Origin: Desmodesmus armatus
Taxonomy: Eukaryota > Chlorophyta > Chlorophyceae > Sphaeropleales > Scenedesmaceae
Assembly (NCBI GenBank): GCA_007449985.2
Contig: VIIQ02000075.1
Location: forward strand, 331,501-395,500
DNA: 64,000 nucleotides
Reading direction: 5' to 3'
The translations under genes were made by a program, and so were the position numbers. Below the pieces are notes generated by a model. It did not search any database. It saw nothing but the letters and a program-made list of their open reading frames with translations, and was not told the DNA's origin. Positions 51,301-64,000 of the stretch are shown here, in pieces. Every line of letters begins with the position of its first letter. The stretch's first letter is position 1.

Positions 51301-54300
51301 CAGGTGAAAGCAGGGTTCCATGAAAAGACAGGACACATGGCTATACCCATGATGGGTGTGGTTGCATTGGTGTCGCATCTGCGCCCCCATCACAACCCCA
51401 TGCACAACATTTTGCACCCACAGCCACGATTATAAACCTTTGACCCTAGCAATCACTCAAGTGGCAAGCTTGTGTTGCGCTCCAGGCATTGACTTGCTCT
51501 TGGGCTTGCGCTTGTTCTTTGCCTCTGGCGACACACGTTGATGTGTTGCCAGGGACACAGCGCAAGCTCAAGAGCCGGTCAAGGCCTGAAGTATACATAA
51601 GCATGACACTTGAGTGCCTGCTAGAAATCAGGGTTTGTAGCTTGTGCTGTGCGGTCTGAAATAGAAGCCACATTACCTGCTGCATTCCCGCTATATCATC
51701 CTTCACTGAGACACAGCGCAAGCCTTGAGTAACGCTGTGTGCTAGACACAACAAATCATCTTGTCGATCATGTCATGTCTGTGTTGTTGACCAGGGGGGG
51801 CTCACCTGCAGGGCTGCCATATGATGGCATCATGTTGTTCCTGAAAGCCGTCTTGAATTCTTCTGCTGCCCCGCAATTGTTATGTTATGTTATGTCAACC
51901 CTGTGCTGTCTGTGATGTGGTGTTTTCCAAGGCGGGCGGCATCTACCTGTATGCCAACCAGCAAGGCTGTGATGGCGGGCGGCTCTACTTTGACGGCTGT
52001 GCCTGTGTGGCGGTCAACGGCCAGCTGGTGGCTCAGGGGAGCCAGTTCAGCCTGTCAGATGTTGAGGTGAGCCAGAACATCAACTGTTTACTAATACTGA
52101 TGCTGGTTGGGACTGCCATTGTGGAAGGTGATGAGGTTGTGTCCGTCAGTGCCTTCACCAACATGCTTTTCACTTGCACCCAATTGTCTTGCACCTTCCG
52201 GGTTCTATGTACTTCTTCCCTCTCCAGAGCAACCCACTCACACAATTACTCACCAGCTTCCCTCCTGTTGACGCATGGCCCCTGTGGCACACACTCAACA
52301 CCATACACATGTCCCTTGCGTGCATGAACCTTGCAGGTTGTGACTGCTACCGTGGATCTGGATGAGGTTGTGTCGTTCAGGGCGTCTATCAGCAGTCTGA
52401 GGGAGCAAGCATCCAGCACAGTGCAGCCCGCCTTTGTGCACGTGGATTTCAACCTGTGCAGGGCATCGAGCCTCGTGGACCCTCCCAAGCCTGTCAGGGT
52501 AAGCACCATGACAGTCCTCATGTCCTGTAGGATCGGCTTGCAGAGAATTTTTACGCTGGGCCCCGCCTGTGGCTGTTCCTGAAGTGCCTGACTGACATAT
52601 GCATTACCCTTCCGGTTATGTATGATCCCCAAATCACCACACACCACCCCCTGCTGTGTTGTGTTGACCCCCCCCCCTTCCCCACTACAACCCACTACAC
52701 CCCCCCCACACACACACTACAAATCGTGCCACCTTGCAGTTCCACTGTCCCGAGGAGGAGATAGCGTTGGGCCCCGCCTGTTGGCTGTGGGACTACCTGC
52801 GGCGCTCTGGTGCCTCTGGCTACCTGCTGCCCCTGTCTGGTGGTGCTGACAGCAGCTCTACTGCAGCGATAGTGGGGTCAATGTGTCAGGTGGGTGAGAG
52901 GGCAGGTCTTGGCTACCATTGTTTGCCTCCTCTGTTGTGGCAGCAGTGTTGCATGCAGTTGCAGGTTTGCACGGCATGTATGGAAAGTCTGCCTTGGCGT
53001 GAGGGTGTGCAGGGTGCGACTTATGCAGACTTGAAGATTCTGGATGAATTGTTAACAATGCACAGGTGATGTAAGGCCTCAATATGGCACAGGTGGAAAC
53101 AAGACACAGGCAACTGCTATGCTGTGGTGTTCTGTTGCACTACTTGGATGCTCAGGACACATATATGCTCAGCCTTGTGCTGCATTGTGCTGTTTCGTGC
53201 TGTGTTGTGCTGTGGTGTGGTGTGCTGCTGCAGCTTGTGGTGCGTGCAATCAAGGCTGGTGACAAGATTGTGCTGGCAGATGCCCTGCGGATTGGTCAGT
53301 ACAAGGAGGGGGAGGCTGTTGAGGTTCAGGACCTGGCCAACAGGCTGTTTCACACAGTCTTTATGGGAACGGAAAACAGCAGCGGCGACACACGCAGCAG
53401 GTATGTACAGGGTGTATGATCAAGGTCGGGCGAGGTTTTTTTGTTTTCCCCCCCCAAGTGATCAGTAACTGTGGCTGGACCAACCAATGGTCAAGGTTGG
53501 GCGTGTTCTCTTTGGTTGGGATCAAGGTTGGCGTGTGCTTTTGTGTGTGGCCTTGCACCATCAGGGGGGTGGTCCAGGCAGGGTTGGTGTGTGGTGCTTT
53601 GCTGGTCCAGTCCATCAAGTTGTGCCTTGGTGCCTCTTTCCCCAAGATTGGTTTTGATATTCGAGGCACATGGGGGTTCCAAACGTGGCAGCATATGGCT
53701 AGCAATCCTTTTTAGGGGCTGCCTGCAGTCAGTATTTTTTTAGTTGGCTATTTCGCCAAATTTGGCTAATTTCAGGATATTCCTTTAGCTAAAAGGGAAA
53801 ATTGCATTGCACTTGTCGCCAAATTCTGTAGCCAAACAAAATTCAGGGGTACCCCAAATTTGTAGCCAAATTCAGGGGTACCCCAAATTTGTAGCCAAAA
53901 TCAGGGGTACCCCAAATTTGTAGCCAAACAATATCCATAACGGTGCTGTGTGTCGCCAAACGTCCAGCTGCGCAAAAATGCCAGGCAGGGCCACGCTGCC
54001 GCGTGACCTGTTACCTGCCTGGTACTGTTACTTGCTACAGCCTGACCACCAACTGCTGGCACGGCAAGCTTGCTTTGGTGCTCCCGCAAGCATAACAGGC
54101 AGCAAAAGCAGGAGTCAAGGGGACTTTGTCGCGGTGTCACCAGATTATATTGGGGTGGGAGGCTGTTGTTGCCAAAAACAGGTGTTTCACTGTACTTGGC
54201 TTTGTCGCCAACTTATTTGGGGTGGGGTGGCCTTGGCGCCAAATCTGTAGCCAAAATCAATTGGCCACTGGGATTTTTTCGCCAAGTATCGCCAAGGGTC

Positions 54301-56809
54301 CAAACCTTAAAATAAACACTGCAGGCTGCAGTGTCTGGGGTCGTCGGCATATGCATCCCCATCCCACGCGTACCCGCCATTGCCTAAACCCTTGACCTCC
54401 ATGCAGGCATCTGACGCATCTGACGCATCTGAACCCTTGATCTCCATGCATGCATCCCACGCATCTAACTCCTTGATGTGCATGCATTCTTTTTGCACAG
54501 GTCCAAGGCCCTGGCCCATCAGATCGGCTCCTACCACCTTGACATCAACATTGACAGCCTGGTGAGCTGTGTGGTGGCCCTGTTCACATCCATCACCAGC
54601 AAGACACCACGCTTCAGGGTGGATGGAGGGACGCCAGCAGAGAACCTGGCCCTGCAGAACATACAGGTGAGGGCCACGTGTTTTTTTTGCGTATGTTGTG
54701 TATGTGACTTGCACAGTCACAGATTATTTGATGAGCAGCTGTGGATGCGTTCCCACATGCCGACTGGATGCCGCTGCTGCCGCCGCACACTAACCAAGTC
54801 TGCCTGCCTTGGCTGCTCCCTGCACCTGCACACCTACGTTGTATTGCAACACCCAGCATCATGTACTGCCGATCCTGCTGCTGCTGCTGTTGCCTTGCTG
54901 TCGTCTCTTGTTCTTTGTCGAATGCGTCCCCTGCCTGTGATGCCCAAACGTGTCTCATGCAGTCTGATTGCTGCGCAACACTTCTTTCGACCTCTTTTGC
55001 GTTCTCTATTGCGTCTCGCTTGTGTGTGCGTGGTCCTGCATACGGACGTACGCAACCCGCTCGCAGGGGCAGTCTGCGCAAACCCGTCTTCATCCGTGCT
55101 CCCACTCATGCACGCTACTGCTGTCTTTTCCCTGCAGGCCCGTCTGCGCATGGTGATGGCATTCCTGCTTGCCCAGCTGCTGCCCTGGGTTCGTGGCAAG
55201 TCTGGCTTCCTGCTGGTGCTGGGCAGCGCCAACGTGGACGAGGCCCTGCGCGGCTACCTCACAAAGTATGACTGCAGTGCTGCTGACATCAACCCCATCG
55301 GGGGCATCAGCAAGGCGGATCTGAGGCGCTTCCTCAAGTGGGCTGCGGTGAACCTGGGGTACAGTCACCTGGCGGAGGTGGAGGCAGCACCACCCACTGC
55401 TGAGCTGGAGCCACTGAGGTGGGGGTGCTGTCTGTTGCCTGGTAGTATCTACCTCGTGTGATGAGTAAGGTAGTTTTGGCTTACTCATCACACAATTGCA
55501 CTCGAAGCAAGATCACACACTCCCTCACCACCACCACCTACTGCTGAGCTGGCGCCACTGAGGTGGGGGTGCTGTCTGTTACCTGGTAGTTTTCGCTTAC
55601 TCATCACACAACTGCACTCGAAGCAAGATCACACACTCCCTCACCACCACCTACTGCTGAGCTGGAGCCACTGAGGTGTGTGTTTGGCACAGAGGTTGCA
55701 TGTGTAGCTAGCAAGTCAAGCAAGCAATCAGTAATTGGATGTTACACAGGGAAAAAAGCAATCTATAAGGCATAACAACATAGTTTGCGTGTTGTTTGTT
55801 GCTTAGCCGTTTGCTGACTCACTCCCTCACTGGTGAGGTGGAGGCGGCACCACCTACTGCTGAGCTGGAGCCACTGAGGTGGGGCTGTGGCTTGTTGGCC
55901 TGGTCCTTTTCACTCCCTCCCTCTCTCCCCACCAGACCTGTGCTGTATGTATGAAGGTTTGTTGATCGAGACTTGTGCGCCAAAACTAATGCACTGGCAC
56001 AGTTCAGCCACTGTGTGCCGCATTTCCTCGTCATATGGCTGAGCAGGAAGCGATCCCGAGCCCCAGACAACAAGGCAAACAACCGTTTTTTTTGCGCTGG
56101 CTCCTTATATCATTACGCTGGTGCGGTTGTCGTGTGCTGCTGTGTGCAGGGAGGGTGTTGAGCCCCAGAATGATGAGGCGGACATGGGCATGAGCTACGA
56201 CGAGCTGGGTGTGTACGGGCGCCTGCGCAAGGTGGTGCGCTGCGGGCCTGTGGCCATGTTCAGGCACTGCTGCCAGCTGTGGAGGGACAAGTACGCGCCA
56301 GAACAGGTGGCGGAGAAGGTACGTGGCGACGGGCGGGGGGGGGGGGAGCACTCAGTAAGCGACCGCAGCATCCTACAATATGGCTTATGACATCTAGGAT
56401 ATGTTGGATGGGAAAGCAGCTGTGGCGATGCCGTGATGCCGTGATGCCAGAGATAGTTGAGTCATATTGAGGGTAGGCCAGGATGATATGTCACTTTGCT
56501 TGAACTTGAAAGGGACCGTATGTCTAGTGTCTGTTGTGAGGGGCCCTGAGCCCTGCTCAAGGTTGCCATGTTGCGTGCTGTGCTGTGCTATGCTGTGCTG
56601 TGCTGTGTGGTGCTTAGGTGAAGTACTTTTTCAAGTTCTACGCCATCAACCGCCACAAGACCACAGTGCTCACGCCCTCGTACCACGCGGAGAACTACTC
56701 CCCAGACGACAACCGCTTCGACCACAGGCAGTTCCTCTACAACTACGCATGGCCCTGGCAGTTCAAGCGCATTGATGAGCTCACGGCAGCACTCTCAAGC
56801 AGCAGCTAG
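48359..56809 (+). CDS. NADSYN1: Glutamine-dependent NAD+ synthetase
   Basis: Fourteen exons: 48359-48484, 48708-48797, 49108-49174, 49708-49807, 50170-50334, 50966-51086, 51932-52066, 52337-52498, 52740-52889, 53234-53400, 54501-54666, 55138-55418, 56150-56318, 56618-56809; 2091 nt, 696 residues, typical eukaryotic length. It amidates nicotinic acid adenine dinucleotide to NAD+ with ATP and glutamine, the last step of NAD synthesis. The N-terminal nitrilase-type glutaminase has [16 protein letters not shown], Glu about 48 in [10 protein letters not shown], Lys about 115 in [16 protein letters not shown] and the nucleophile Cys about 236 in [10 protein letters not shown]. The synthetase domain has the ATP-pyrophosphatase loop LSGGADSSS (about 354-362), [43 protein letters not shown] and [18 protein letters not shown]. 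Both active sites look complete. Exons 5, 12 and 14 are each followed by tandem copies of their own 3' ends. Confidence 0.97.
50312..50590 (+). repeat. Tandem copies of NAD synthetase exon 5 3' end plus donor
   Basis: The exon 5 end (TGCGAGGAGCTCTTCACCCC, then CACAGTGAGCACAGCAGGGC) at 50312 recurs at about 50426 and 50543, a period near 115 bp. Copy 2 keeps the GTGAGC donor; copy 3 has decayed to GCGAGC and lost a base of coding frame. Confidence 0.9.
53740..54300. repeat. AT-rich block with 29-bp tandem repeats in NAD synthetase intron 10
   Basis: Three 29-nt units start at 53845, 53874 and 53903, each with AGGGGTACCCCAAATTTGTA, which contains the palindrome GGGGTACCCC. The motif GCCAAA/TTTGGC recurs on both sides up to about 54300. 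The base composition differs sharply from flanking intron and exons. Probably an inserted element; no ORF. Confidence 0.75.
55396..55890 (+). repeat. Four copies of NAD synthetase exon 12 3' end plus donor
   Basis: ACTGCTGAGCTGGAGCCACT, followed by GAG and GTG, occurs at the true exon end (55396) and again at 55540, 55653 and 55856. Copies 1 and 2 share the downstream intron sequence too, including TTACTCATCACACAA. All four keep the GAG/GT splice junction. Confidence 0.93.
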
Positions 56810-57260
56810 GTTCTGGTGAGTGGGTGGTGCAGGCAATAGCAGTGGCCTGTCTTGTAGCAGCACCTGGCAGCAGCACTGTCAGGCAGCAGTTTGGGGCTCT
56901 GTTTCTGACAACTCAGAGCCATTCTGGCTGCTGCGTTAACCCGGCAGCAGCACTCTCAAGCAGCAGCTAGGTTCTGAGGAGTTGGCGGCGCAACTGGCAG
57001 CTGCAGGGGCCTGTTCTGCTGGAGTGTGCTGCTGCAGATTAACCTGCAGCAGCTAGGTGCGCTGGTTCTGATGACTTCGTGGTGCAGCTGGCAGCTGCAG
57101 TGGCCTGTCTTGTAGCAGCACCTGGCAGCAGCACTCTCAGGCAGCAGCTAGGGGCTCTCTGGTTTTGACCAGACTGCAGCTGTTCGTGGCGCAGCTGGCA
57201 GTGCAGAGGCCTAGCAGCAGCACTCTGCAGCAGCAGCTAGGGGCTCTTGTGCTGAAGGGT
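56785..57260 (+). repeat. Degenerate tandem copies of the NAD synthetase stop-codon region
   Basis: The last coding bases and stop (GCAGCACTCTCAAGCAGCAG, then CTAG) recur with drift at about 56862, 56943, 57033, 57122 and 57208, each followed by related GGTTCTG/GGGCTCT and CTGGCAGCTGCAG blocks. Period is about 80-90 bp. Confidence 0.85.
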
Positions 57261-59000
57261 TGGGCTGTGTGTGGCGCAGCTGGCAGGTCTGCCGGCCTGG
57301 TCTTGCGGCAGTGCCTGGTGGTTGTTCTACTGGGGTGGCTGCAGTCTCACGTTGCAACTAGCAGCGCTGAAGGCTGGAGACTTGCTGCTCTGTGTGTGGC
57401 GCAGCTGTGCAGGTCAGGCTAGGTGTTGTGGTCAGGGGTGGCCCTGGCAGTTGTGCAGGTCAGCGCAATTTGCATTTCTGCGGATCAGCGCAGATTCGCA
57501 GGTCAGGCTAGGTGTGGTGGCAGTGGCAATTCAAATGCATTTGCACATTGGCAGCAAGTAGTCTCAGGCTTGCAGCTGGTAGCGCTGCCTCTAGCTGGCA
57601 ACTGCAGGCAAAGCGTCGTGCTACACTTTCAGATGGCAACTTGCTGTTTGATTGTTTGGTGCACTGGCTCTAGCATGTGTGGCTCAAGTAAGGTGCAGAG
57701 AGCGGCTGTGCCAGGGCGTTTGCATAGGAGTGGAGGGTTGTGTGTTTCGTCTGGCTGGGGTCTGTTGTCCCTGTGGTGTCCTTTGTTGCAACCAGCTGCC
57801 AGCAACCTGTGTCAGCAGCAACCTTTGGGGTAGTGGATTGATGGCAGGCCTTAGCCAAATGGGGCATCCTTCACACATAGCTGTTGGTGGTTAGGAGAGT
57901 AGGTGTCGCAGCGTTCCCAACATTCCTGCAAGTGTATTCTTTTGTGTGCAATGGCACAGCGGGTGATTTGCAGTCAGTCCTTGTTATTGGTTGTTCCATG
58001 CACACGGGACTGCTGGCCTTGAGGGGTGTGAGGGTTGGCAACACTGGCTGAAATGAGGTGGCAACCCATGTACCGCTGGCCTGTGTTTGCAGGTAGCCAT
58101 GGCATGTGTGACTGTATGTCTGCACGATCACACGCATGCAGCGTCAGGAGTGAAACGTGGTGTGTGCCGCTATTGTGTGTATACCCTTCATTGCCTCTGT
58201 GATGTGCAGCCTTTGCACCTTCGACACTGCAATGGCCAGCGTGGTTTGTTTTTGTATAGACCACTATGGTGTGTCGGCAGTTTCGTGATAGGCGGTGATC
58301 TGGTTGGTTCCATGCTGCAGGGATGTTCCATGTGTTTAGCACTTGGGTGATACCATGTGAGCTGCAGGTGAGAAATTCTGCCAGAGGGTTCTTTGTAACA
58401 ACAGAAGGTCATGCTGCCGTCAGCGGTACACAAGACTCGAGCAGATGCATCTGCATGTCACATGTGTGTGTTGACAACACAATTATTCAGTGACCAAACC
58501 TGCTGGGGTTTGGTTGATCCACCACAAAATTGCCAACACCAACTACATGATGCTGATGTGTTGGGGCGGGATGACAAAACAGGGCACAATCAAATATGAA
58601 AACTTCAGGTGGTTCCAACTTTCCTAACACCACAGGAAGCTTTAGGCTGTTTCAACTTCAACGACAGCAACAACCACAGTGTGCAACTTGCACACACCAA
58701 CAACATGTTCACAATCTGCCCTGTGCTTATTCCCTCTTTGTACCAGCCCTGTCTGAAACAAAGAAGTAGCAACCCAGCCCATGTGTGACTGTACAACATC
58801 ACTCCACTGCAGGAGAAACACCAGCAAGAATTGCAACCCGCCCTGTGCTTATTCCCTCCTCTTCCAGCCCTGTTCAAAAACAGAGAGGTAGCAACCACCT
58901 TCACGCGGCAGTCCACAACATCACTCCACTGCAGGGAAACGGAGCAACGTACTGTTGATAGTAGGCAACTTGAAGTAAAAACACCTGCCATACCATTCAA
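57261..59000. other. Repeat-rich spacer, no gene seen
   Basis: The first part continues the decayed NAD synthetase 3' repeats (blocks such as CAGGTCAGGCTAGGTGTTGT at 57411 and 57501). From about 58640 to 58970 there is a tandem repeat of about 125-150 bp, with shared CCCTGTGCTTATTCCCTC and ACATCACTCCACTGCAGG at both copies. No coding region recognised. Confidence 0.6.
58640..58970. repeat. Tandem repeat, two copies of about 125-150 bp
   Basis: Both copies contain CCCTGTGCTTATTCCCTC, a CCAGCCCTGT...AGTAGCAACC-like block, and ACATCACTCCACTGCAGG in the same order. The second copy starts near 58838. Confidence 0.8.
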
Positions 59001-59039
59001 CACTCGACCTCAGCACTAAGGTGGCCCCCTCCCTGCCTG

Positions 59040-59760
59040 CCACAACACTGCTGCTTGCAAGCTGGCTGCAGCTAGAAGTGCTCTGTCTCAACCCCCTCCA
59101 TCAGCTCACCATTCGTTGCTGCCTCCACACCCCCCTGCACTCCCCCCACCCTCATCACAGCAGTCTGTGGACCCCAGAAGACACGCAACTCTGTATCCCC
59201 AACCCCATCTGGCCCCCCTCCTGCCTGCCACAACACCGAGTCCTGCCACATTGCCAGCACAAGCCACAGCCTGCTTGCCCCCTGTCCACACACACCCCCC
59301 CCTCATCACAGCTGTCTGAGGGCCCCAAAAGACATGCACAGCTCTGTATCCCCAACCTCAGCTGGCCCCCCTCCTGCCTGCCACTGTGCCAGCACAAGCC
59401 GCACCCTGCTGGCTGCAGCTAGAAGTGCTCTGTCTCAACACCCTCCATCAGCCCACCACTCGCTGCTGCCTCCGCACCCCCCTGCATTCCCCCAGCCCTC
59501 ATCACAGAAGTCAGGAACCCCAAAGACACATAAACCCTGACCCCCACCCCCGCCTGGCCCCCCTCCTGCCTGCCCACAAAACAAAACTGAGTCCTGCCAG
59601 TTTGCCAGCACAAGCCGCACCCTGCAGGCTGCAGCTAGAAGTGCTCTGTCTCAACGCCCTCCATCATCTCCCCACTCGCTGCTGCCTCCGCACCCCCCTG
59701 CACTCCCCCAACCCTCATCACAGCAGTCTGTGGGCCCCAAAAGACACGTGAACCCTGACC
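59040..59760 (-). repeat. Tandem copies of the HEN1 3' coding end and flank
   Basis: On the minus strand the last residues of HEN1 (TAVMRVGGVQGGAEAAASG, then a short acidic end VETEHF and stop) occur in the gene itself (about 59740-59635) and again, with the stop preserved, ending at 59419 and at 59072. Intervening flank (GCCAGCACAAGCC, CTGCAGCTAGAAGTGCTCTG) is repeated as well. Confidence 0.88.
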
Positions 59761-59902
59761 TCCACCTCCACCTGGCCTTCCCCTTGCTCCAGCACCCCTT
59801 CCCCCTCCCGCCCCTGCCTGTACACCCTCTTTCCCCACGTTGCCTCTCACACCCTCCCCAGACGGTGCCGTATCAGCTGCTGCTGCTGCACCCCCCTGCT
59901 GC

Positions 59903-59952
<50 letters not shown>

Positions 59953-60118
59953 GTCAAGCAGCGTGAAGACAGCAGCCTGTGAGGCACCCCCCAGGCCGCT
60001 GTCACCCCCCAAAGCAGCGATCTGAAAGGGGTCCTGGAAGGGGTCCTGCATCACATGCACCTCCTGCTGTGCTGATGGCACTGCTGCTGCTGCTGCCGCA
60101 TGTTGCTGTGCTGACGGC

Positions 60119-60150
<32 letters not shown>

Positions 60151-60444
60151 ATCACCCTGCTGTTCTGTTGCCATGGTGCCTGCAGCTCCCACATCCGCAA
60201 GCAAAGCCCGCTGCTGCTGCTCCTGCTGCTGACCAGCCTTTCCCACACCCTCCAACACAGCAGCAGCACCAGCAGCACCACCCCCTGCCTCCAATACAGA
60301 CCCCACCACAGCCGCCGTAACCGCCTCAGCTGCTGCACTAGCTGCCCGGTCCCCTGACCCCCCTGTCACAGCAGGCAGTGCTGTCAATAAGGCTTCTGCA
60401 GCGGTCTCCGCTGCCGCAGCAGCTGCTCCAAGCCCCTCTAGCTT

Positions 60445-60490
<46 letters not shown>

Positions 60491-62215
60491 CTGAGGGTAT
60501 CCAGGGCCTGCTGTTCCTGCAGTGCCCTGCCAATATTCACAAACTCCACTGAGTAGCCGTGCTGCTGTGCCATGGATGCAGCCCAGCCCCTGAACTCAGC
60601 CCGGGTCCACTCAAACTTGTGGTCGCCATGGCGCAGGGGCTGGCCGTCCCTGCCTGGGGGGCCGGCCATGACACTCCTGGAATTTGAAGGAATGAGGGCG
60701 GTAAAGTGAAGTTGGTGCGGTTGTGGGAGTGTGGGTGTGGGTGTGGGTGTGTGTGTGGAAAGGGGGGGGGGGGGGGGGGCTGGCCGTCCCTGCCAGGGGG
60801 GCCGGCCATGCCACTCCTGCAATTTGGAGGATGGAGGGCAGGAGAGTTGAGTGGTTTGTGTTAGTGTGGGTGTGTGGGTGAGGGTATGGAGGGGGGGGTG
60901 GCGGGAGGGCTACAGGTCAGCCAGAGGTGGAGAACAGTGAGGGTGCATAGGTGCAAGGGAGGGAGTTTAGCATGTTGCGCCCCAGCACGTCAACTGGCTG
61001 CGGCTCCAGATGCTCCAACACCTCAATGCACTCACTTTACACACATATGGTTTGAATCAGAGCCCACGGCGCACCCCCTGCCCTCCTGATAATACCACCC
61101 AGATGCCACCCACCCCCCCAGAGACCCCCCGTCTCCCCCCCAGTCACCTGCATTCATGGCCCGTAGGACACAGTTGTACTGTTTCAGTTAGGTGTTGTGA
61201 ACACAGCCACCCTGGGCCTCAACCCACCCAGCACATCAACTGCCTGCGGCTCCAAAACCCTAGCCATGCTGCCAAGTCTACACACACACAGGGCCAAGTA
61301 AATTACAGCCCACTCTGTGCACTTCCTCCCTCCCTAACCAGACCACCCGGATGCCCCCATCCCCCCCTCCCTCCGCCCCCCCCCCTCCCTCCGTCCCCCC
61401 CCCCCCCTGACCCACCCCTCCCACTGACCTGTATTGATCGCCCGCAGGACACAGTTGTACTCCCAGTTAGGTGTTGTGAACACAGCAACCCGGGGCCTTA
61501 GCCCTCCCAGCACATTATGCCCCAGCACATAAACTGACTTCAACTCCAGATGCTCCAACACCTCGATGCATGCAGCCTAATCCACACACGGGCTAATGGC
61601 CTCACACCCATTCACCCCCCCCCCCCCCCCGTCGTGTTTGCCCCTCCATAAAAGACCCTCAAATGCCTGCCCTCCCCCCCCCCAAGCCATGCCCCTCCAC
61701 CACACTCACCTGCATTGATTGCCCGCAGGACACAGTTGTACTCCCAGTTTGGTGTGGTGAACACAGCCACCCGGGCCTCAACCCACCCAGCACGTTGTGC
61801 CCCAGCACATCAACTGACTGCGGCTCCAAATGCTCCAGAACCTCGATGCATGCAGCCAAGTCCCACACACCCAGGCTGTAGCCCCTGGTCCCCCCACAGC
61901 CCTGGGCCGTTATCCCCGGGCTTGGCCCAGTTGACGGCAGCCCTGGCCCAGTTGGCCTCGAGCCTGGCAGGCCTGCCCAGACTGCCCCATCTGGCCCACC
62001 TGGCCCCAGATCTGGCCCAGCTGGCCCCAGGCCTGGGCTTGTGAGGTCCCCTTGCAGCAGCAGCAGTTGGACAGCCCAGCTGGCCCCTCCATCTGGCCCC
62101 CCGCCAGATGAGGATACCGTCCCAGTGTAGAGTCCTCCCTGCCCCTGCTGCCCACTTTGCTGCTGCTGCTGGTCCTGCTGCAATGCTGCTGCTGCTGCCA
62201 GGGGATCCTTTGCAC

Positions 62216-62254
<39 letters not shown>

Positions 62255-64000
62255 ATGAAGCGTGTGAGGTCGTGTGAGGAACATCAGTGAAGCTGTTTGC
62301 TGTGCCCTGGAAGACTGAAAAACCCTCTGACAGCCCCATACCACCCTCTGACGCCTCAGACAGCCCCCCATCCTCAAGCCTCAGGCTAGACCCTGGCGCA
62401 TTCACAGAGGGCGCTCCCCTGAGAGCCTGGCACCAACAACCCCAGATATTGATATCGTACTGCCCTCCCCTTCAAACGCTGCCAAACCAGGCCCCTCTGC
62501 CGCTACACACCAGCAGGTGCTGCTGCTACAGCTGCACCCCTTTCTGGATGCATCCCTACCATCCCCACTGCCTCGCCACTGACCCCAGCAGCAGGGATTC
62601 TGCTGCAGCTGCACCCCCACCCCCAGCAGCACCCCCACCCCCACCCCCAGCAGCAGCAGCACCCCCACCCCCACCCCCAGCAGCAGCAGCACCCCCACCC
62701 CCAGCCGCAGCAGCAGCAGCATTACCGCACCCGCAGGCCCAGAACCTCATTTCCGGAGGGTTCTAGGGTCATGCGTGTGCTCTGCATGCCTTGCAGTCGC
62801 CTTGCAGCTGCTGCTAGCTCCCGCTGTGAGAGGTCCCACCCCCACCAGCCGCTGCAGGGGTGTGAAGGCACACTCACACAGCAGGTGCTTCAAGAGGCCG
62901 CCATCACCACAACCGAGGTCCAGCACGGTTGACATGCCGCAGCGGCTGACCAGCTCTGACACCAAGCGACGACGCTGGAGGCCTGTGATTTTTTGGGGCG
63001 GCGGGGGGGGGGGAGTGAGGGTTGAGGGGCACGCCAGGTGAGTGAGTGAGTGAGTGAGTGGGTGATTGAGTCTGAGTGAGTGCAGATACAGCACTCGCAC
63101 AGCAGTGCTTCAAGAGGCCCGCCGTCACCGCAACCGATGTCGAGGACGGTTTTACATGCCGCAGCGGCTGACCAGCTCTGACACCAGGCGGCGACGCTGG
63201 AGGCCTGTGTGTGTGGGGGGGGGGTGAGGGGGAGTGAAGGTGGACGGCACACTAGCTGAGTGAGTGAGTGAGTGAGTGAGTGAGTGAGATATTGAGTCTG
63301 AGTACGATAGCACAGCAGGTGCTTCAAGAGGCCGCCGTCACCACAGCCAAGGTCCAGCACGGTTGACATGCCGCAGCGGCTGACCAGCTCGGATACCAGG
63401 CGGCGACGCTGCAGGCCTGTTGTGAAAGTGGGTTGGGGTGGGGGGAGAAATGAGGGTTGAGGGCACACCAGGTGCCACCTGGTCACGGTGAGTGAGCAAG
63501 GGAGTCGTTGAGTATGAACAGGTATGAAAGACACTGGCACAGCAGGTGCTGCAGGAGGCCCGCCGTCACCACAGCCAAGGTCCTGCACGGTTGACATGCC
63601 GCAGCGGCTGACAGCTCGGACACCAGGCGGCGACGCTGGAGGCCTGTGTGTGTGTGGGGGGGGGTGAGGGGGAGTGAAGGTGGACGGCACACTAGCTGAG
63701 TGAGTGAGTGAGTGAGATATTGAGTCTGAGTACGATAGCACAGCAGGTGCTTCAAGAGGCCGCCGTCACCACAGCCGAGGTCCAGCACGGTTTGACATGC
63801 CGCAGCGGCTGTCCAGCTCGGACACCAGGCGGCGACGCTGGAGGCCTGTGTGTGTGTGGGGGGGGGGGTGAGGGGGAGTGAAGGTGGACGGCACACTAGC
63901 TGAGTGAGTGAGTGAGATATTGAGTCTGAGTACGATAGCACAGCAGGTGCTTCAAGAGGCCGCCGTCACCACAGCCGAGGTCCAGCACGGTTGACATGCC
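59635..64000 (-). CDS. HEN1: HEN1-type small-RNA 2'-O-methyltransferase, 5' part outside window, exons tandemly repeated
   Basis: HEN1 methylates the 3'-terminal ribose of small RNAs and protects them from uridylation and decay. Seen on the minus strand: a SAM-binding exon (62982 down) with QRRRLVSELVSRCGMSTVLDLGCGDGGLL and, after a one-base frame break, LSQRELAAAARRLQGM; an exon with WDLAACIEVLEHLEP (to about 61724), giving the ExxEH metal ligands; and a clean copy of that exon, 61576-61429, through FTTPNWEYNCVLRAINT. The last exon is 60653-59635 (acceptor at 60676 also possible), with GDHKFEWTRAEF (third metal His) and YSVEFVNIG, followed by a long poly-Gln/poly-Ala tail. Exons 61576-61429 and 60653-59635 join in frame. 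Other copies carry frameshifts. The family is secure; whether this locus gives an active enzyme is not. Confidence 0.8.
59904..59951. repeat. (CTG)16 run encoding poly-Ala in HEN1
   Basis: Sixteen CTG units; on the minus strand the frame reads GCA, giving a poly-Ala tract in the HEN1 tail. Shorter runs of the same kind lie at about 60123-60149 and 62221-62253. Confidence 0.95.
60451..60489. repeat. (CTG)13 run encoding poly-Gln in HEN1
   Basis: Thirteen CTG units; the minus-strand frame reads CAG, giving a poly-Gln tract directly after the methyltransferase core. Confidence 0.95.
60630..60845 (-). repeat. Duplicated start of the last HEN1 exon, split by a poly-G/C run
   Basis: GGCTGGCCGTCCCTGCC plus the following exon start and intron end (through about 60710) recurs at 60779-60845. 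The outer copy keeps a TTGCAG acceptor but is cut off after about 40 exon bases by an 18-base homopolymer (about 60761-60779). Confidence 0.88.
60965..61865 (-). repeat. Four copies of the HEN1 metal-ligand exon
   Basis: Minus-strand copies: about 61865-61724 (joined to upstream coding sequence but one C short after LGGLRP), 61576-61429 (frame intact), about 61285-61148 (degenerate, TGA after TTPN) and about 61025-60965 (5' fragment only). They share ATCGAGGTGTTGGAGCATCT-type sequence and GACACAGTTGTACT near the donor. Confidence 0.9.
62590..62725. repeat. GC-rich minisatellite in HEN1
   Basis: Repeated blocks of CACCCCCACCCCCAGCAGCA type, period about 30 bp. They lie between the SAM-binding part and the next HEN1 coding part and read as Gly/Ala-rich in one minus-strand frame. 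Confidence 0.85.
62868..64000 (-). repeat. Array of at least six copies of the HEN1 SAM-binding exon
   Basis: Exon acceptors (CACAG or similar before GCCTCCAGCG) lie at 62982, 63204, 63416, 63643 and 63845; a sixth copy is cut by the window end. Spacing is 202-227 bp. Copies 1 and 3 are in frame and the visible part of copy 6 too; copy 2 has a TAA after RCGM, copy 4 lacks one base, copy 5 has one extra A. Introns between copies carry G-runs and (TGAG)n. Confidence 0.93.

Follow-up and report, generated by a model that had tools for sequence, protein, structure and literature searches.

The start of the catalytic exon of a putative HEN1 gene of Desmodesmus armatus is present in six head-to-tail copies on the minus strand. 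The repeated unit joins the 3' end of an intron to the opening 106-107 nt of an exon some 1.28 kb long; it is not the whole SAM-binding exon claimed in the initial annotation of this DNA. We read the array, with a probability of about 0.7, as a series of intronic echoes of an exon end, which would have arisen by tandem duplications across an exon border, tolerated in introns and expanded by unequal exchange. The window analyzed here was a stretch of 64,000 nucleotides (C71:331501-395500) from an assembly of 115.8 Mb in 831 contigs. The contig extends to 435,309 bp, well beyond the window edge, and the assembly letters read there (stretches L009 and L010) contained no N.

Judged by its predicted protein, the gene is HEN1. 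A composite query, typed from the exon frames of the array region, matched 3htx_A 'HEN1' with an E value of 4.2e-17, the methyltransferase domain being best matched by HEN1. Residues 5-145 of the query aligned with residues 698-844 of 3htx_A, including the SAM motif, EVxEH and TPNxEYN, and the last two motifs are found downstream of the SAM motif in the gene. The 3htx entry is, we assume, the Arabidopsis HEN1 protein. The other six hits of this query were named Hen1, small RNA 2'-O-methyltransferase or methyltransferase type 12. In a genome search with the HEN1 query the 13 best of 18 matches fell at the HEN1 locus and no second clear HEN1 match was found in the assembly; with the best match elsewhere at E 0.017 and 34% identity, a second HEN1 locus was rejected as the source of the divergent copy 5. 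The catalytic exon (61705-62983, minus strand), running from the SAM motif DLGCGDGG to EVLEHLEP and TTPNWEYN, was recognised by tblastn with P0001-P0003 and is bordered by the acceptor ACAG/GCC and the donor GCAG/GTGAGT. The last coding exon (59638-60672, minus strand) was recognised with P0026 and also with P0005; against P0026 it aligned at E 7.75e-87 and 53% identity over 342 unbroken codons (60663-59638), with the stop at the same place. The relatives P0001-P0004 and P0008 came from a protein search that gave 27 hits, in which the 7996 candidates sharing most words were scored.

The coding sequence of HEN1 is interrupted by frame changes in two exons. All five of the relatives P0001-P0004 and P0008 (297-336 residues) carry the SAM motif and the metal-binding motif in a single open frame. 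Compared with relatives, the catalytic exon here changes frame three times: near 62840, somewhere between 62503 and 62441, and again at 61773. Across the low-complexity stretch 62755-62503 no relative could be aligned by tblastn in a single frame, and a further frame change, between 69075 and 68961, affects the exon at 69188-68605. Those changes that can be placed by eye look single-base, and wherever relatives align in the right frame no nonsense codon was seen. At 61773 both echoes of the exon end, described below, hold one base more than the live exon. Among 312 matches to other protein families in the genome, read by eye, no two neighbours less than 100 bp apart lay in different frames, and the sequence examined held 26 non-overlapping ORFs of at least 300 codons; frame breaks are therefore uncommon in this assembly. 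Against this, stops occur, by our own count, in 41 of the 312 matches, some of which are surely read-through introns. The frame changes of the live exons may be consensus errors or true damage, and since they are possibly the former we name the locus HEN1 and do not claim an active enzyme. The HEN1 of Chlamydomonas is described as poorly characterised (PMC6129010). Piwi domain exons were found on three contigs (C329, C545 and C666) and PAZ exons on two of these, with two sets of each on C329; as far as the domain matches tell, these are several Argonaute-like loci. Inside a HEN1 intron, on the opposite strand, there is an Rfam tRNA match of 36.9 bits (L009 1552-1620) for which ARAGORN makes no call; by eye we take it to resemble a shortened tRNA-Ala(AGC). 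The window also contains a 29-bp tandem repeat of 3.1 copies with 98% matches at 53839-53928.

All six copies of the array open at an acceptor ending in ACAG, reach through DLGCGDGG and six codons more, and close just past GLLKHLL. They are numbered here in gene order, and all lie on the minus strand. Copy 1, the outermost intronic echo, lies at 63939-64044 (L009 1139-1244) and crosses the window edge at 64000; its frame is intact. Copy 2 (63739-63845) has a one-base shift and copy 3 (63538-63643) has one-base shifts. Copy 4 (63311-63416) is again intact and ends in GTGCT, and copy 5 (63098-63204) has a stop and one-base shifts and retains a donor-like GTGCG. Copy 6 (62877-62982) is the start of the real exon and the sole copy to which the remaining exon is attached (CECAFTPLQRLVGV...). 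Copies 1, 4 and 6 are open in the HEN1 frame, reading LQRRRLVSELVSRCGMSTVLDLGCGDGGLLKHLL, so the earlier statement that some copies are intact and others broken was accurate. Any two copies share 86-102 identical columns of 106-108, and the TRF scores at the array (1355 and 814) exclude chance. At least six copies had been noted initially; alignment recovered six, and extension along the contig showed the set to be complete. Similarity is over by 64071 and the intron preceding copy 1 is unlike the spacers, hence the array ends at six and an open-ended repeat was rejected. The proposal that it continues past the window holds for the outermost copy, which straddles the edge, and for nothing further: that copy ends 44 bp beyond the window, where the contig continues. 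Distances from start to start are 221, 213, 227, 201 and 200 bp, near the 202-227 bp given before. The spacers, of 93, 95, 121, 106 and 115 nt, carry a four-base microsatellite (TCAC). Three of them are identical apart from gaps although the adjoining copies differ, as unequal exchange would leave them. Copies 1-5 sit, with no continuation of the exon, in the intron that starts after FDPPLG/GTGAGT (L009 2186).

The differences between copies are enriched in synonymous changes. In a hand count that omitted single-base indels, 13 of 18 were synonymous against 30% expected (p 0.0003). All four changes shared by copies were synonymous, as were both of those private to copy 6 and seven of the twelve private to copies 1-5 (p 0.04). 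Synonymous changes made up 8/8 between copies 6 and 4 and 6/6 between copies 1 and 4. Automatic counts against copy 6 gave synonymous to non-synonymous ratios of 4:0, 5:1, 7:2, 8:0 and 12:5 for copies 1 to 5, the last being inflated by the shifted tail of copy 5. We chose the pairs ourselves, and the tests depend on one another. If all echoes had decayed freely from the time they split, such an excess would not be predicted, which counts against the reading as echoes. It would be predicted by two hypothetical processes, conversion by the live exon and exchange between alleles that had diverged. In our reading the excess reflects conversion by, or exchange with, live exons and does not prove that the copies are used.

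Duplication at this locus is not limited to the SAM motif: the other end of the exon that carries it and further borders of the gene are also repeated. The end of the catalytic exon, with its metal-binding and TTPNWEYN motifs, has an array of its own with a period of about 281 bp (60959-61870). Its first echo (61424-61582) has a donor-like GTCAGT and a stop near the 5' edge, the second (61146-61290) is decayed and the third (60959-61030) is a fragment (CIEVLEHLEPQPVDVLG). Synonymous to non-synonymous counts for the echoes of this end were 10:10 (p 0.03, but with the frame lost once the missing base is passed) and 3:10. An echo of the start of the last coding exon lies at 60776-60911, where MAGPPGRDGQP can be read by eye; it matches 60636-60781 at 79% over 146 columns. 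The end of that last exon has two echoes, one at 59278-59625, which also takes in sequence downstream of the exon, and a second at 59016-59274 (FWGPQTAVMRVGG...EGVETEHF). All these echoes are on the minus strand. Thus the catalytic and the last exon are each echoed at both ends, the start echoes sitting upstream and the end echoes downstream. Further clusters of repeats were found up-gene at 65039-65817, 66425-66722, 66841-67567 and 69313-69607, giving eight in and just past HEN1; we take these up-gene clusters (65039-69607), from their translations, to be probable exon borders.

Local repeats occupy 4091 of the 10,263 bp of HEN1 (40%; 59638-69900). Their share is 87% in the intron between the catalytic and the last exon and 54% in the one that precedes the catalytic exon, but 23% and 19% in the catalytic and the last exon themselves, respectively. 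The first 55,000 bp of the window hold 712 bp of repeat and the region 70000-82800 none. Downstream of HEN1, at 55375-58940, local repeats with offsets of 122-460 bp were observed. Since the repeats continue there, the hot stretch is regional: it covers about 14 kb (55375-69607) and reaches past HEN1 on the 3' side. Twenty segments of 10 kb were sampled at round coordinates on 20 other contigs, which were taken from a list of search hits and not drawn blindly. They held 0-2733 bp of repeat (mean 503 or 5%, median 110 or 1%), with local repeats present in 11 and absent from 9. The 10-kb segment of HEN1, with 3944 bp, was the highest of the 29 examined, nine of which came from C71. The repeat process is therefore widespread but patchy in this genome.

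To find the same arrangement elsewhere, six family lists were scanned by eye for neighbouring matches covering the same profile positions: Piwi (8 matches), PAZ (3), Helicase_C (87), Cpn60 (50), Pkinase (141, from 120 of 685 candidates scored) and ABC (23, from 19 of 185). Three pairs overlapping by at least 15 positions were seen among the 312 matches, and one of the three was a true duplication. It concerns an exon of a helicase (L044, C616:342351-343200), presumably HELQ/POLQ-like. The start of this exon is echoed upstream at 81% over 94 columns, and its end, together with a donor, downstream at 91.5% over 176 columns; synonymous to non-synonymous counts were 10:2 for the end echo and 7:8 for the start echo. 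The other two pairs were rejected: the chaperonin matches of C571, overlapping by 29 positions, showed no DNA duplication, and the kinase matches of C5, overlapping by 18, yielded no more than 31 bp matching at 84%. L028 holds an apparent last exon whose end is echoed downstream, and a stop is read in the echo. Most other sampled repeats do not look coding, so the crossing of exon borders is not typical of local repeats here. Three overlapping repeat pairs at L021 9761-9997 show a strong synonymous excess (9:1, 8:2 and 19:5) and are probably a repeat within a protein. A codon-usage exon finder gave the right frame in 192 of 274 windows and for this reason was used only to rank ORFs; nine repeat-overlapping ORFs from the 23 ranked, the L028 product included, had no Pfam match above the cut-off.

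Both ends of C71 (L047 and L045) lie in local repeats with exon-like units, LLFDDFELNDKLTRLVTALT before ATGTGAGT at its start and units about 232 bp apart at its end, which suggests that arrays of local repeats break the assembly. A repeat at threshold was present in none of four other contig starts and in 24 of 280 internal windows of 700 bp. At one of these four starts, that of C613 (L051), inspection by eye showed an exon end (LLAAASGHGSIHIF) followed, about 165 bp further down, by an echo that is weak, decayed and below threshold. A subtelomeric position of the locus was rejected, as neither the last 2000 bp nor the first 1500 bp of C71 contain a telomere array. Upstream of the exon in P0001 and P0003 no array copy was found within about 105 and 69 nt, a reach that falls short of the 115 nt separating copies 5 and 6. 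Searching with copy 4 plus flanking sequence led to 33 candidates of which none was scored, the length limits of this search omitting proteins of the size of P0001-P0004. Among viral and prokaryote contigs, scanned in a way that detects close relatives only, the array was not found, and no report of comparable exon-end arrays in green algae was found in the openly licensed literature.

The following origin is proposed. A short tandem duplication took in the 3' end of the intron and the first 106 nt or so of the catalytic exon, as the anatomy of the copies shows. The copy attached to the remaining exon would have stayed whole, and a transcript spliced there could still encode the enzyme; an additional acceptor with an exon start would thus have cost little within the intron. 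Unequal exchange between copies, perhaps aided by the TCAC microsatellite of the spacers, could then have raised their number to six. Unequal exchange was one of three meanings offered initially for the array and is the best supported of them, with the addition that it would be an expansion step after the initial duplication. The same process would have affected other exon borders of HEN1, and echoes of starts upstream and of ends downstream are what is expected if only duplications leaving one full exon survive. We consider it probable that the HEN1 array is a locally intense case of a process that also acts elsewhere in the genome and has no function of its own as a catalytic array. That duplications crossing exon borders are the main builders of some introns, with echoes kept near-coding by exchange or conversion as a reserve of splice sites and motif-bearing exon ends recruitable as new exons or introns, is a broader idea that we hold to be unlikely.

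The other two meanings offered, alternative exons and an assembly fault, fared less well. If the cell could pick which copy is joined downstream, it would obtain variant SAM-binding sites or a way to switch the enzyme off. The C-rich tract and acceptor ending in ACAG of all six copies are compatible with this, as are the intact copies 1 and 4, which differ from copy 6 by synonymous changes only (4/4 and 8/8). However, copies 1-5 are without the remaining 1.17 kb or so of the exon, and it does not hold for each copy that it is a whole exon whose acceptor and donor agree in phase. With GTGNG as the donor, a pattern read off the few donors visible in the exons recognised here and not a trained model, copies 5 and 6 alone end in one, and copy 5 is broken by a stop; the intact echoes 1 and 4 end in GTGCT instead. 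In copies 1-4 a GTGNG comes next at 42, 46, 69 and 58 nt inside the spacer, so copies extended that far do not share a phase; nor, given the spacer lengths and the four-base microsatellite, would longer versions of the copies keep a common one. An insert of 103-104 nt ending at the GT of the copy end would shift the frame. Such a choice of exons is hardly credible. Another alternative is a gain of introns, in which the upstream copies would be spliced as small extra exons and the duplication would create new introns, as in the potato RdRp gene. The unit is the same as there, an intron 3' side with an exon 5' side, as PMC4974935 describes it, and a donor-like GTGYGAG lies inside the exon where the copies end. 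Yet only one of the five echoes retains the donor, and including a single echo would shift the frame; nor could an AGGT, which the Rogers model as described in PMC4974935 requires in the duplicated exon segment, be seen by eye in the copy-6 stretch. We hold this alternative to be quite improbable.

A falsely expanded repeat would account for the array as an artefact of assembly. Single-base differences in short G, C or A runs and the frame changes of the live exons could be long-read consensus errors, and both ends of C71 lie in local repeats. Against this, the copies differ by 4-20% of columns and some spacers diverge much further, no N interrupts the contig where it was read, and an unrelated gene, that of the helicase, shows the same arrangement of echoes; a fault in copy number is thus very improbable. 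Decay of HEN1 as a pseudogene, in which arrays would accumulate without opposing selection, deserves more weight, and we regard it as possible, at odds clearly below even. It would fit the frame changes, at least four in exons where relatives stay in frame (three of them in the catalytic exon, another in the exon at 69188-68605), the further stretch 62755-62503 without a clean frame, and the lack of close neighbours in different frames among the 312 family matches elsewhere. It fits poorly with the 342 unbroken codons and conserved stop of the last exon, with right-frame alignments in which no nonsense codon was seen, with the single-base look of the placeable changes and with the presence of Piwi and PAZ domain exons in the genome; the repeats, moreover, are also found downstream of HEN1. 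Intronic echoes of an exon end remain our preferred reading, under which an apparent array of catalytic exons would be a readable record of intron growth, made of partial exon copies of different ages at several borders. Motif searches in such genomes may count broken exon ends as exons.

Tandem exon-like units of similar sequence in one intron are known from mutually exclusive exons of the Dscam type. The units described here differ in being incomplete exons, four of the five echoes having no GTGNG donor at their end. The algal gene shares the SAM motif, EVxEH and TPNxEYN with the HEN1 of 3htx, but its catalytic exon has a long low-complexity insert and, in this assembly, frame changes. A published parallel is the potato RdRp gene, where, according to PMC4974935, tandem duplication of a unit spanning an intron-exon border made a new intron. 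The unit in HEN1 likewise joins the 3' side of an intron to the 5' side of an exon. In potato, as described in that paper, there was one duplication and the new intron was detected, whereas here six units, both sides of exons and several borders are involved. Proven recent intron gains are few according to the same paper, and many border-crossing duplications in one genome would therefore make the tandem-duplication models of intron growth and gain testable in numbers.
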